Shown piece after piece: positions 9,340 to 14,691 of a stretch of 64,000 nucleotides of DNA (positions within the stretch are counted from its first letter, which is position 1; every line of letters starts with the position of its first letter). Under the pieces are notes generated by a model, which made no database searches, was not told the DNA's origin, and was given only the letters and a program-made list of their open reading frames with translations. This DNA comes from Orrella dioscoreae. GTDB taxonomy: Bacteria > Pseudomonadota > Gammaproteobacteria > Burkholderiales > Burkholderiaceae_B. Both the position numbers and the translations under genes were made by a program. Location: positions 2,232,001 through 2,296,000 of the forward strand of contig NZ_LT907988.1 of the NCBI RefSeq assembly GCF_900089455.2. The letters are read 5' to 3'.

Positions 9340-10491
9340 TCAAGGCAGCGCGAGGTCCGCGCTGCCGGGACGCACCCAGCGCGCGCATTCCCGCGTCGCA
9401 TCGATGCAGCCGCCTTCGGCGTAGACGCCTTGCGGGTCGCGGATGCGCAGCATGCGCGCCAGGATGGCCTGCACGGCCTGGGGATCCTGCTGGGTCTGGT
9501 GCACGCGGCGATCCACCTCGTCGTCGTTCACGCGCAACTGGCCGCGGTCGTTCTCATAGGTGGCATCGCGCCAGTGGTAGATCTCGAGGCACTTGGACAC
9601 CAGCGTGAAGGGCTGGTCGCGCTTCCAGAAATTCGTATAGCGGCCTTCGCCCACGTAGACCACCCACGACCCCTCGTAGCCTTCGGCATTGGCCGACGCT
9701 TCGTCCGGGTTGCGGAACCAGAGGCGGTCGCCGGGAACGTAATAGCGCGAGGGCAAGGGGGCCTGCAGCGAGCCGTACTCGCGCAGGAAGACGTCGTGGA
9801 AAAGGCCGGACATGATGGCGCGCTGCTCCCACTGGCGTTGCAGGCGGCGATAGAGCGGCGGATTGGTGTCTTGCAGCTCCTGGGCAATGCCCAGCAGCGT
9901 GACGTATTCGGTGGCGCGATAGCAAGAGAACGCATACAGCTTGCCGGTGGCGTCGGGCTGGGTGGCCTTGCGCAGCGCATCGATCAGGTCGGCGCCCGGG
10001 CGCAGCACGAAGCCGGTGGCCTCGGAATAGGTCCAGCAGTCTTCGGGGCGCTCGGCTGCCTCGGTGTCGAAGGCCAGCGCCGTCTTGCGGGCGGCCTGCA
10101 CCGTGTAGCGCCGGATGCGGATGGCCGAGGCCAGTTCCGCCACGCTGGGATAGGCCAGCGGCACGGGCGCCAGCAGCAGGGCGAGCAGGATCTCGCGGTC
10201 CAGGTCGGCTTCGCGGGCGTGGGTGTCCAGTCCCAGGGCGTCCACCAGGCCGGTGGTGTCCAGGCCTGGCGCCCAGCGCGCCGTGGCGTCGGCCGACAAG
10301 ACCAGACGCAGTACGCCGCCCGCCTCGTGGAGGATGTCGGTGCAGTCTTCGGTGGACAGCGCTGCCAGCAGCGCGCGGGCCTCGGCTTCGACGGCTTGCG
10401 GGTCGGCCCCGGCACCCATCTCGATGCGCACCCCGTAAGGCAGCAGGGCCGCCGGGCGCGTGACGGGGGAAGAGGGCGTGGACGGCGTCAT
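9340..10491 (-). CDS. Tgl-type protein-glutamine gamma-glutamyltransferase homologue
   Basis: Residues about 115-300 of this 383-residue protein correspond segment by segment, from memory, to Bacillus spore-coat transglutaminase Tgl. Matching blocks are YPSVAELASAIRIRR, KLYAFSCYRATEYV, LPSRYYVPGDRLWFRNPDE and WVVYVGEGRYTNFW. Tgl links glutamine to lysine side chains. The nucleophilic cysteine would be Cys190 (AFSC) and the catalytic glutamate Glu282 (GEGRY). The histidine found after this motif in Bacillus is replaced (TNFW). There is no signal peptide. About 110 N-terminal and 80 C-terminal residues have no counterpart in the 245-residue Bacillus enzyme. The ATG at 10491 has GGAG nine bases upstream. 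No neighbour suggests a substrate. The family assignment is fairly firm; activity is inferred. Confidence 0.7.
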   Translation of the reverse strand: MTPSTPSSPVTRPAALLPYGVRIEMGAGADPQAVEAEARALLAALSTEDCTDILHEAGGVLRLVLSADATARWAPGLDTTGLVDALGLDTHAREADLDREILLALLLAPVPLAYPSVAELASAIRIRRYTVQAARKTALAFDTEAAERPEDCWTYSEATGFVLRPGADLIDALRKATQPDATGKLYAFSCYRATEYVTLLGIAQELQDTNPPLYRRLQRQWEQRAIMSGLFHDVFLREYGSLQAPLPSRYYVPGDRLWFRNPDEASANAEGYEGSWVVYVGEGRYTNFWKRDQPFTLVSKCLEIYHWRDATYENDRGQLRVNDDEVDRRVHQTQQDPQAVQAILARMLRIRDPQGVYAEGGCIDATRECARWVRPGSADLALP

Positions 10492-10636
10492 GATTCGTGT
10501 CTCCGGGGCGGGGCCCGCCAGCGCCCGCAGCGCACGGGCGAGCCAGAGTAGCGCAACGTCTTGCGCCTCTCAAGCCCGTTGCGCGGCGTCATAGGCCTGC
10601 ACGACACAAGGGCATTCCCTGTGATCAAACGCAAAC

Positions 10637-10650
10637 CCTTATCATTAAGG
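10637..10650. promoter_or_regulatory. Candidate operator upstream of the metal ABC operon
   Basis: CCTTA-TCAT-TAAGG is a short inverted repeat 17 bp before the likely start at 10667, in the region shared with the divergent transglutaminase homologue. A metal-sensing repressor site would be expected here, but the sequence matches no Fur, Zur or MntR consensus that I can assign. Confidence 0.3.
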
Positions 10651-10666
10651 TGATTTGACAACACGG

Positions 10667-11731
10667 ATGGCAGGCATGATCAGGGGCATGGACGTATCGG
10701 CACACCCAGGCACGCAAACACGGGCAGGCGCGGCGACCGCCTTCGGCCGGCCGAGGCGGACAGGCCAGGCCTGGCTGGGCGCGCTGGCCGCGGTGCTGGC
10801 GGTACTGCTCCTCACGGCCCTGCCGGCGCGGGCGCAGCCCTCGGGCGAGCCGCTGGACGTCGTCGCCACCACCGGCATGCTGGGCGATGCGATCAAGGCC
10901 GTGGGCGGCGAACGGGTCAGCGTGACGACCCTGATGGGGCCGGGCGTCGACCCGCACACCTACCGCCAGACGCGCTCGGACATCGGCCGGCTGACGCGCG
11001 CCGACCTGGTGGTGTGGCACGGGCTGAACCTGGAAGCCCAGCTGGAAAAGCTCATGCACGACCTGGCCCGCCGCCAGCGTGTCGTGGCGTTGGCGGAAAC
11101 CGCGCTGCCGCGCGCCGACCTGCTGGCCGACGAGGATTACCCCGATCGTTACGACCCTCACGTCTGGATGGATCCGTCCCTGTGGGAGCGGGTGGTCCAG
11201 GCCGCGCGCGACGCGCTGATCGACGCCGAGCCGGCCAGCCGGGCCGTCTTCGAGGCCAATGCGCGCGCCTACCAGCTGAAACTGGACGAGCTGGACGATT
11301 ATTCGCGCAAGGTGCTGGAAAGCGTGCCGCCCAAGGGGCGCGTACTGGTGACCGCGCATGACGCCTTCCGCTATTTCGGCCGCGCCTATGGCTACGAAGT
11401 GCTGGGCATCCAGGGCATTTCCACGGAAAGCGAAGCCAGCCTGCACCAGGTCGAACGCCTGGTGGGCGAACTGGCCAAGCGCCAGATCGGCGCCATCTTC
11501 GTCGAATCGTCCGTGTCCGAGCGCAACGTGCGCGCCCTGATGGAAGGCGCGGCCGCCCGCGGCCACACGGTCAGGGTGGGCGGCGAGCTGTATTCCGACG
11601 CGATGGGCGCGCCGGATACGCCCGAAGGCACCTATCTGGGCATGATCGCCCACAACGTCTCGACCATCGCCTGCGCGCTGGGCGGCGACGCCGGCCAGCC
11701 TCCCGCGGGCGTGGCGCCTTGCAAGAAATGA
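10667..11731 (+). CDS. Metal ABC transporter substrate-binding protein (probably Mn)
   Basis: This cluster A-I (TroA/PsaA/MntC) receptor has about 354 residues and an N-terminal signal segment ending near PARAQ. The four metal ligands can be placed as His in DPHTY, His in DPHVW, Glu in FVESSVSER and Asp in LYSDAMG. This His-His-Glu-Asp set is typical of manganese (or iron) receptors, and the His-rich loop of ZnuA zinc receptors is absent. The start is uncertain: ATG at 10667, 10676 or 10688 are all possible, and the long N-terminal extension favours one of the later ones. The stop overlaps the ATPase start (ATGA). It delivers metal to the two permeases downstream. Confidence 0.88.
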
Positions 11732-12576
11732 TCGGCATGCCCAGAGCCAAGCCTCCCGCGCCTTCCCGCGACGCCGGCGCGCCGCCGCCCGCGCTCTCGC
11801 TCAGCGGCCTCACCGTCAGCTATGACGGCAAGACCGTGCTGTTCTCCATCGACCACGTGGTGCCGGCCGGTGCCATGAGCGTCATCGTGGGACCCAACGG
11901 CGCGGGCAAGTCCACGCTGCTCAAGGCCGCGCTGGACATCATTCCGCGGGTATCGGGCGAGGTCAGCCTGTTCGGGCTGCCGTTCGCGGCCAATCGCCAC
12001 CGGGTGGCTTATGTGCCCCAGCGCGCCAGCGTCGACTGGGAATTCCCCGCCACGGCCTTCGACGTCGTGGCCATGGGGCTTTACCGGCAGCTCAGCCCGT
12101 GGGGCTTCCTGCAGGCAGGCCACAAGGCGCGCATCGCCGCCTGCCTGGAGCAGGTGGGCATGCGCGAGTTCGCCGACCGCCAGATCGGGCGGCTGTCGGG
12201 TGGCCAGCAGCAACGCATCTTCCTGGCGCGCGCCCTGGTGCAGGACGCCGATCTCTATGTGCTGGACGAACCCTTCGCCGGTGTGGACGCCGCCACCGAA
12301 CGCGCGCTGATCAGCGTGCTGCGCACGCTGAACCGTTCCGGCAAGACGGTGCTGTGCGTGCATCACGACCTGGCCACGGTGCCGGAATATTTCGACCACG
12401 TGCTGCTGCTGAACGTGCAGCGCGTGGCGGCCGGCCCGGTGCGCGAGGCCTTCACCGCCGACAACCTGCAGGACGCCTACGGCGGCCGCCTGGCGGGCGT
12501 GCAGATCGACCGGCTGGCCGAGGCGCACGACTCGGCGGCCGTGGCTGCAACCGACGCTTCCGCCCGACAGGACTGA
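11728..12576 (+). CDS. Metal ABC transporter ATP-binding protein
   Basis: This 282-residue ATPase has Walker A (GPNGAGKST), signature LSGGQQQR, Walker B ([12 protein letters not shown]) and the H-loop (CVHHDL). The segment [20 protein letters not shown] before the signature is characteristic of Mn/Fe-type (MntB/SitB) ATPases, which supports manganese as substrate. The ATG at 11728 forms an ATGA overlap with the receptor stop, showing translational coupling. The first permease follows four bases after the stop. Confidence 0.92.
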
Positions 12577-12580
12577 CACC

Positions 12581-13780
12581 ATGCAGGCCTTCCTGTCCGC
12601 CTTGCTGATGCAGGCCGGCTACAACACCGCGTTGGTCACCCTGGGTGCCGCCTTGCTGGGCGCGGCCGGCGGCGCGGTGGGCGCCTTCGTGCTGTTGCGC
12701 CGCCGTTCGCTGGTCAGCGACGCCATGGGCCATGCCACGCTGCCGGGCCTGGCGCTGGCCTTCATCGTCATGGCGGTATGGACCGGCAATGGCCGCTGGA
12801 TGCCAGGCCTGATGCTGGGCGCGGCCATTTCCGCCACGCTGGGCATGCTGGCGGTGGGCGCCATCGTCGGCCGCACCCGGCTGCGCGAGGATGCGGCCAT
12901 CGGCGCCGTGCTGTCCGTGTTTTTCGGCGCTGGCGTCGTGCTGCTGACCGTCATCCAGGTCATGCGCACCGGCAGCCAGGCGGGCCTGGGCTCCTATCTG
13001 CTGGGGTCGGCCGCGGGCATGCTGCGCAGCGAGGCCGTGCTCATCGCCGTGATGGCGGCGGTCACGGCCCTGGCCATCTTCCTGCTGCGCCGGCGCTTTG
13101 CCCTGGTGGCGTTCGACGCCGACTATGCCGAGGTCTCGGGTGTGAACGTGCGCCGTGCGGATCTCGCCCTGTCGCTGGTGCTGCTGGCCGTCGTCGTCAC
13201 CGGCCTGAAGGTCGTGGGGCTGGTGCTGAGCGTGGCGCTCACCATCATCCCGGCCGTTGCCGCGCGTTTCTGGACCGAGCGCGTGCACCGCATGGTGCCC
13301 ATCGCCGCGGGCCTGGGCGCGGTGGGCGGCTACGTGGGTGCCGCGCTGTCTTCCACCGCGCGGGGCCTGCCGACGGGCTCGCTCATCGTGCTGACGCTGT
13401 TCAGCATCTTCGCCGTGTCGATGCTGCTGGCGCCCAGCCGTGGCCTGCTGGCCGTGGCCGTGCGCTATTACGCCTTTCGCCTGCGGGTGCACCGGCGCCA
13501 AGGCCTGCTGGCCATCGGGCGGGGCGAACCCATCTATGACGGCCTGACCTTGCGGGTGCTGCGCCGGGCCGGGCACATCCGGCGCGACGGCGTCGCCACG
13601 GAAGCGGGCGCCATCGCCGCCGCGCAGGCCGCGCGCGACGAGGCCTTGTGGATGCAATACCGGCGCGACAGCCCCGGCAGCGTCTCGGCAGGGCTGTACC
13701 AGCGCGTGCTGCCCATCCGCGAGGTGCTGCCGCCCGATACGCTGGCCGATCTCGAGCGCAAGCTGGAGGCGGCGCGATGA
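12581..13780 (+). CDS. Metal ABC transporter permease with C-terminal DtxR-like domain
   Basis: The first ~295 residues are an ABC-3 (ZnuB/MntC) permease with eight or so hydrophobic helices, including RRRSLVSDAMGHATLPG near the N-terminus and KVVGLVLSVALTIIPAVAAR. A soluble tail of about 100 residues follows. Its pattern (LRVLRRAGHIRRDGVATEAG, ARDEALWMQYRRD, LPIREVLPPDTLADLE) resembles the winged-helix and dimerisation segments of DtxR/MntR repressors. Fused permease-repressors of this kind are known in Chlamydia (YtgCR). Whether the tail binds DNA or metal here is unknown. It ends with an ATGA overlap onto the second permease. Confidence 0.85.
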   Translation: MQAFLSALLMQAGYNTALVTLGAALLGAAGGAVGAFVLLRRRSLVSDAMGHATLPGLALAFIVMAVWTGNGRWMPGLMLGAAISATLGMLAVGAIVGRTRLREDAAIGAVLSVFFGAGVVLLTVIQVMRTGSQAGLGSYLLGSAAGMLRSEAVLIAVMAAVTALAIFLLRRRFALVAFDADYAEVSGVNVRRADLALSLVLLAVVVTGLKVVGLVLSVALTIIPAVAARFWTERVHRMVPIAAGLGAVGGYVGAALSSTARGLPTGSLIVLTLFSIFAVSMLLAPSRGLLAVAVRYYAFRLRVHRRQGLLAIGRGEPIYDGLTLRVLRRAGHIRRDGVATEAGAIAAAQAARDEALWMQYRRDSPGSVSAGLYQRVLPIREVLPPDTLADLERKLEAAR

Positions 13781-14691
13781 TGCTGGCCGACTTCCTGGGC
13801 CTGAGCCTGACCCCCGCGCTCATCGGCCTCCTGGCCAGCGTGGTGTGCGCGCTGCTGGGCAATTTCCTGGTGCTGCGCCGGCAAAGCCTGATCGGCGATG
13901 CGGTCAGCCACGTCGTGCTGCCGGGGGTGGTGGGCGCGTTCCTGGTCACCGGCACGGTCAGCACCGGTCCCATGCTGGCGGGCGCGGCAATTGCCGCGGT
14001 GCTGGCGGTGGGGCTCATCGAGGCCATCCGCAAGCTGGGGCGCATCGAATCCGGCGCGGCCATGGGCGTGGTCTTCACGGCGCTGTTCGCCGCCGGCGTG
14101 CTGTGGCTGGAGCGCTCACGCGCCAGCGCCGTGCACCTGGACGTCGAGCACGTGCTGTACGGCAACCTGGAAAGCCTCATCTGGCTGGCCGCCATCGACT
14201 GGGGCGACCTGCTGGATCCCGCCGTGCTGGCCGAGCTGCCGGTGCAGTTGCCGCGCCTGGCCGTCGTGCTGCTGGTGGTGGCGCTGTTCCTGTTCCATCG
14301 CCGGCGCGAACTGGTGCTGGGCACCTTCGACGCCGATTTCGCCGCCAGCGTGGGCGCCAGGCCGGGCCTGACGGGCTTCCTGCTGCTGGTCATGGTGGCG
14401 GTCAGCGCGGTCGCGGCCTTCGAGGCGGTGGGGGCCATCCTGGTGGTCGCCATGTTCATCTGCCCGGCCGCGGCGGCCCGCCTCATGACGGACAAGCTGG
14501 GGGCGCAGATCGGCTGGAGCGTGGCGTTCGCGGCCCTCTCCTCGCTGGCGGGCTTTTTCCTGGCCGCCTACGGGCCGATGCTGTTCGGTTCGCCCGACAG
14601 CGTCAGCGCCGCCGGCATGATCGCGGTGATGTCGGGGCTGATCCTGGCCATTGCCTGCGTGGCGGGACCGCGGCGCCGCCGGCGCGCCTGA
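13777..14691 (+). CDS. Metal ABC transporter permease, second subunit
   Basis: A 304-residue ABC-3 family permease without the C-terminal extension of its partner; the two would form a heterodimeric membrane channel. Motifs include LLGNFLVLRRQSLIGDAVSH near the N-terminus and AVGAILVVAMFICPAAAARL in the conserved late helix. The start is ATG at 13777 within ATGA; the next codon is also ATG. It closes the four-gene operon. The 240 bp that follow (14692-14931) hold no recognisable gene. Confidence 0.9.
   Translation: MMLADFLGLSLTPALIGLLASVVCALLGNFLVLRRQSLIGDAVSHVVLPGVVGAFLVTGTVSTGPMLAGAAIAAVLAVGLIEAIRKLGRIESGAAMGVVFTALFAAGVLWLERSRASAVHLDVEHVLYGNLESLIWLAAIDWGDLLDPAVLAELPVQLPRLAVVLLVVALFLFHRRRELVLGTFDADFAASVGARPGLTGFLLLVMVAVSAVAAFEAVGAILVVAMFICPAAAARLMTDKLGAQIGWSVAFAALSSLAGFFLAAYGPMLFGSPDSVSAAGMIAVMSGLILAIACVAGPRRRRRA

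Follow-up and report, generated by a model that had tools for sequence, protein, structure and literature searches.

We found that the first permease of a metal importer in Orrella dioscoreae carries a C-terminal tail homologous to the metal-dependent repressors of the DtxR/MntR family. The tail is probably a decayed DtxR domain that the importer has retained as a lasting cytoplasmic component with a role in cis, and not a metal-dependent repressor. A fusion of a permease with a repressor that is then released has already been described in Chlamydia. Among the Pseudomonadota genomes sampled here, about 5% carry a DtxR-derived tail that appears no longer able to be a YtgR-like repressor, sometimes beside an intact MntR, which shows a possible fate of a permease-repressor fusion and cautions against annotating DtxR-like permease tails as regulators.

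The importer operon

In the window (i.e., the whole stretch of 64,000 nucleotides analyzed here), the operon lies on the plus strand in the order substrate-binding protein, ATPase, first permease and second permease. The ZnuA/MntA-like substrate-binding protein gene (10667..11731, with alternative ATG starts at 10667 or 10688) matched Pfam ZnuA with an E value of 1.7e-79, and its nearest NCBIfam models, AztC and MntC, were both under the cut-off. The ATPase gene (11719..12576) matched Pfam ABC_tran (E 1.6e-25), and its top NCBIfam match was a manganese/iron ABC ATPase, again under the cut-off. The first permease (12581..13780, 399 residues), adjoined by the genes for the ZnuA-type substrate-binding protein and the ABC ATPase, consists of an ABC-3 core at residues 19-283 (PF00950, E 3.3e-50) followed by the DtxR-like tail. 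The second permease (13777..14691, Pfam ABC-3, E 2.4e-41), whose start codon is shared with the end of the first permease gene (sequence 13770-13790), has no such tail. The importer is presumably of the manganese type.

Divergent from the operon, the minus strand at 9340-10491 encodes a protein matching a protein-glutamine gamma-glutamyltransferase (PF20085, E 3e-36). The same genome has a second ABC-3 permease adjoining a weaker Fur-family match (G000:C1, about 4714283-4716574), which is probably part of a Zur-controlled zinc importer.

The tail is homologous to DtxR/MntR

The first-pass annotation had noticed about 100 soluble residues beyond the membrane part with the pattern of a DtxR-like winged helix and dimerisation helices, and both observations held. 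The tail, supported by an AF2 model, structural matches, profile comparison and conservation in 26 orthologs, comprises residues 295-399 (13463..13777, plus strand), i.e., 105 soluble and basic residues of 11.8 kDa with a pI of 10.7. The AF2 model of the tail, built from two sequences (the window tail and a Roseibacterium relative with 42% identity), had a pLDDT of 88.7. It contains helix 1 (296-314), a remnant of helix 3 (321-329), a wing (332-340), a long dimerisation-type helix (341-363), small helices and a last helix (385-398). In a full-length model from two sequences, the membrane part reached a pLDDT of only 49, and the tail folded again.

A VIA-align search using the tail model revealed DtxR-family chains (MntR, IdeR and SloR) as all of the top 16 matches, with Z-scores of 5.5-6.7, rmsd values of 4.0-4.7 and 95-101 of the 105 residues aligned; the alignment with MntR spans the entire tail, with Z 6-6.7. 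The MarR-type repressors that ranked next mostly covered only the N-terminal two thirds of the tail. Z-scores of 6-7 are modest and would be inconclusive alone, and Foldseek alone gave no significance for the tail model (best E 1.0; MntR E 2.1, probability 0.51).

Profile comparison was clearer. The tail profile matched a 27-sequence DtxR-family profile in hhalign with a probability of 82%, P=1.1e-5 and a score of 35.3, compared with 17.9 for the best of 200 column shuffles and 12.3 for the reversed tail profile, and the alignment register agreed at the wing, the dimerisation helix and the C-terminal helix. Against seven close MntRs only, the result was marginal (P=0.0077 and 0.011); the clear result came from adding distant DtxR proteins to the MntR-only profile. 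The homology of the tail with DtxR/MntR, which rests on the VIA-align ranking together with this profile test, thus covers the wing and the dimerisation helices in the correct order, with helix alpha2 missing. Other searches were silent: Pfam and NCBIfam scans found no match in the tail of the window protein, none of the 26 members had an over-threshold match to PF01325 or PF02742 in its tail, PADLOC and PDB sequence searches with the tail (single-sequence and profile) returned nothing relevant, and tail relatives were absent from the viral_contigs scan.

Loss of the helix-turn-helix and the metal ligands

MntR has a complete helix-turn-helix and a full ligand set, whereas the tail, which shares its wing and dimerisation fold, lacks both and is part of a membrane protein. 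Counted from the position of ligand E11 as far as the glycine that precedes the wing, MntR (L045) has 40 residues but the tail 21, so that about 19 are missing. Only one helix, of nine residues, lies between helix 1 and the wing in the AF2 tail model. The wing of the tail is therefore preceded by two helices, where DtxR-family repressors have three, and the helix-turn-helix is incomplete. Judging from the alignment and the model, the tail has lost helix alpha2 along with the beginning of the recognition helix alpha3.

The metal site has changed as well. We compared the six ligand positions D8, E11, H77, E99, E102 and H103, named as in Bacillus subtilis MntR; the pair in helix 1 was placed on the tail by analogy with the DtxR sequences of the 27-sequence profile. 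The window protein has G, A, E, L, R and E at these positions and keeps none of the six original residues. Among the 26 orthologs, the D8 position is always Gly and the E11 position always Ala, Ser or Thr. The H77 position is Glu, Gln or Ala, with Glu (E354 of the window protein) in 23 of them. The E99 position is variable, the E102 position (Arg in the window protein) is Glu in 15, and the H103 position shows no conservation. H304 of the tail is nearly invariant. A remodelled metal site involving the well-conserved H304 and E354 may thus exist in the tail. Because both the helix-turn-helix and the ligand set are lost, it is very unlikely, as far as sequence and model can tell, that the tail acts as a metal-dependent repressor.

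Conservation and distribution of the tail

Helix 1, with its invariant RQGLL, is the best conserved element, with a mean pairwise identity of 67%; the membrane core reaches 61%, and the tail as a whole 48%. RQGLL, T323, T340 and G343 are invariant in 26 divergent members, and the dimerisation part is 31-42% identical between orthologs. No tail-less member was found among the close homologs.

When the 398 sampled Pseudomonadota genomes were searched with the tail profile, 20 of them proved to have the tail, with exactly one copy in each. All of these copies lie within open frames of at least 402 residues and none is free-standing. Many families of the phylum have kept the tail; in the window's own family, the permease occurs in 7 of 200 genomes. 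The permease of Azospirillum ramasamyi is 58% identical over 98% coverage. A PF02742 survey of the 398 genomes revealed no convincing match within a permease-length frame, and one candidate (G285, L044) proved to be a chance match in an unrelated ORF.

Control of the operon

An operator at 10637-10650, upstream of the operon, had also been proposed. The inverted repeat CCTTA-N4-TAAGG does exist there, but it is a weak candidate, as repeats with 5-bp arms of this kind occur at a background of about 0.22 per 100 bp in the window. The candidate region (10631..10650) also matches the Fur consensus at 12 of 19 positions, with TAATGATAA as the core on the minus strand. This match ranks in the top 15 of about 64,000 window positions, which corresponds to a coincidence of roughly 3% for a 120-bp promoter. 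If it is anything, the candidate would be Fur-like, as its sequence weakly suggests.

The relatives offer a clearer picture. An over-threshold DtxR-family protein was found in 6 of the 27 genomes searched, 5 of them belonging to the 26 genomes with a full tail. In four genomes (G134, G560, G556 and G446), an MntR gene lies divergently and directly upstream of the operon, and in Azospirillum ramasamyi the divergent gene beside the operon is named mntR in the public record. Many relatives without MntR have promoter palindromes such as TTGAGAATGATTCTCAA, TTGCGAATGCTTCGCAA and TGCAAATGATTTGCA, which are presumably Mur/Fur-type boxes. The close relatives of the window (L083-L086) have Fur-like promoter sequences such as GATAATCATTCTC. 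Judging from these sequences, an independent MntR or Fur-type box would already account for the control of the operon in the relatives. That the tail occurs alongside either type of regulator speaks against a regulator function of its own. The window genome has three Fur-family genes, and no PF02742 (DtxR-family) protein was found in it. In this genome, itself without MntR, the tail could conceivably have another regulatory role.

Two of the close relatives have 13-bp tandem repeat arrays of about 13-16 copies directly upstream of the importer operon (L085, 2260-2467; L086, 2406-2678), and L086 has an additional array of 7 copies.

Role of the tail

Taken together, the evidence points to a reduced domain, derived from the winged-helix and dimerisation part of a DtxR/MntR-type protein, that became fused to the first permease and would have lost its DNA-reading helix-turn-helix and metal-ligand set. 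It would stay attached as a cytoplasmic domain after the last membrane helix, presumably uncleaved, and act in cis, either by stabilising the permease/ATPase assembly or by tuning its activity. It may do so where it meets the ATPase, by helping the importer to assemble or to gate. Deletion of the tail in a free-living bacterium would be a simple genetic route to the question of whether DtxR-like tails regulate importers directly.

The tail could, alternatively, act as a metal sensor in cis, in which a remodelled site, for example H304 with E354, would inhibit transport at high cytoplasmic metal. C-terminal domains of some ABC importers inhibit transport in a similar way, MetN being an example. 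The conservation of both residues, the location of E354 at the MntR ligand position H77, and the retention of the tail after the last membrane helix across many families are consistent with such a sensor. However, there is no intact ligand set and the E99, E102 and H103 positions vary freely, so that we regard the sensor as an unlikely, if serious, candidate. A fuller version, in which the importer captured a repressor domain that lost DNA binding and now serves as a post-translational manganese sensor gating transport through the remodelled site, seems slightly less likely still.

The first-pass annotation had raised a self-regulating importer like YtgCR, in which proteolysis would set the tail free and the metal-bound tail would shut down its own operon. 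Missing metal ligands, as seen in the tail, were among the grounds that it named for giving this reading up. YtgCR of Chlamydia trachomatis (CT069) is an ABC permease with a C-terminal DtxR-like domain, encoded in a metal operon of the type SBP-ATPase-permease-permease (PMC5599777, PMC7755916). Going by these published descriptions, its domain order and the ytgABCD gene order are the same as in the window importer, and this like architecture makes a common or parallel origin plausible. The DtxR fold of the tail and the lack of a free DtxR protein in the window genome also favor this reading. However, YtgR keeps its critical metal-coordinating residues (PMC5599777) and a DtxR-like helix-turn-helix, and it is cleaved and represses, whereas the window tail has replaced ligands and a helix-turn-helix about 19 residues short. 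Furthermore, YtgR is a product of about 28-30 kDa (PMC5599777, PMC7755916), whereas the tail has about 12 kDa. The tail also persists where a full MntR adjoins the operon, and the operators in the relatives are apparently of the MntR or Fur/Mur type. The molecular requirements for the YtgCR mechanism are, by sequence, absent from the tail, and we consider this mechanism highly improbable here; the architecture is similar to that of YtgCR, but the predicted function is different.

A vestigial tail that decays slowly without function, as the 31-42% identity of the dimerisation part and the different or shorter tails of related permeases might suggest, is just as improbable in view of the residues invariant in the 26 divergent members and the lack of tail-less close homologs.

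Permeases and repressors with related segments

A tree of the membrane core joins the tail-bearing permeases, with a support of 1.0, to first permeases of Halomonas, Paracoccus and Deinococcus, and the monophyly of the tail group is poorly supported (0.51). Some permeases of the sister clade have other winged-helix-like tails, which are different or shorter. The Halomonas, Paracoccus and Deinococcus permeases (L047, L049 and L046) resemble the window permease in that some of their tails have a wHTH-like segment. Unlike the window tail, however, these tails do not extend beyond the wing and have no dimerisation part.

On plasmid 2 of Deinococcus deserti (L046, 3813-4904), a winged-helix tail is located on the second permease and not on the first, and it matched DtxR in hhalign with P=6e-5. 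A Paracoccus aestuarii plasmid (NZ_CP067171.1; L049, 2902-4995) has a single annotated ORF of 697 residues with two ABC-3 domains and a winged-helix-like segment between them, i.e., a natural permease-permease fusion. A set of Pseudomonadota DtxR-family proteins (L051-L068) in frames of about 222-283 residues has strong PF02742 matches and an extra C-terminal domain at the protein end; their atypical N-terminal helix-turn-helix (HRRDELLEMLWRLGE...) resembles helix 1 of the permease tail.
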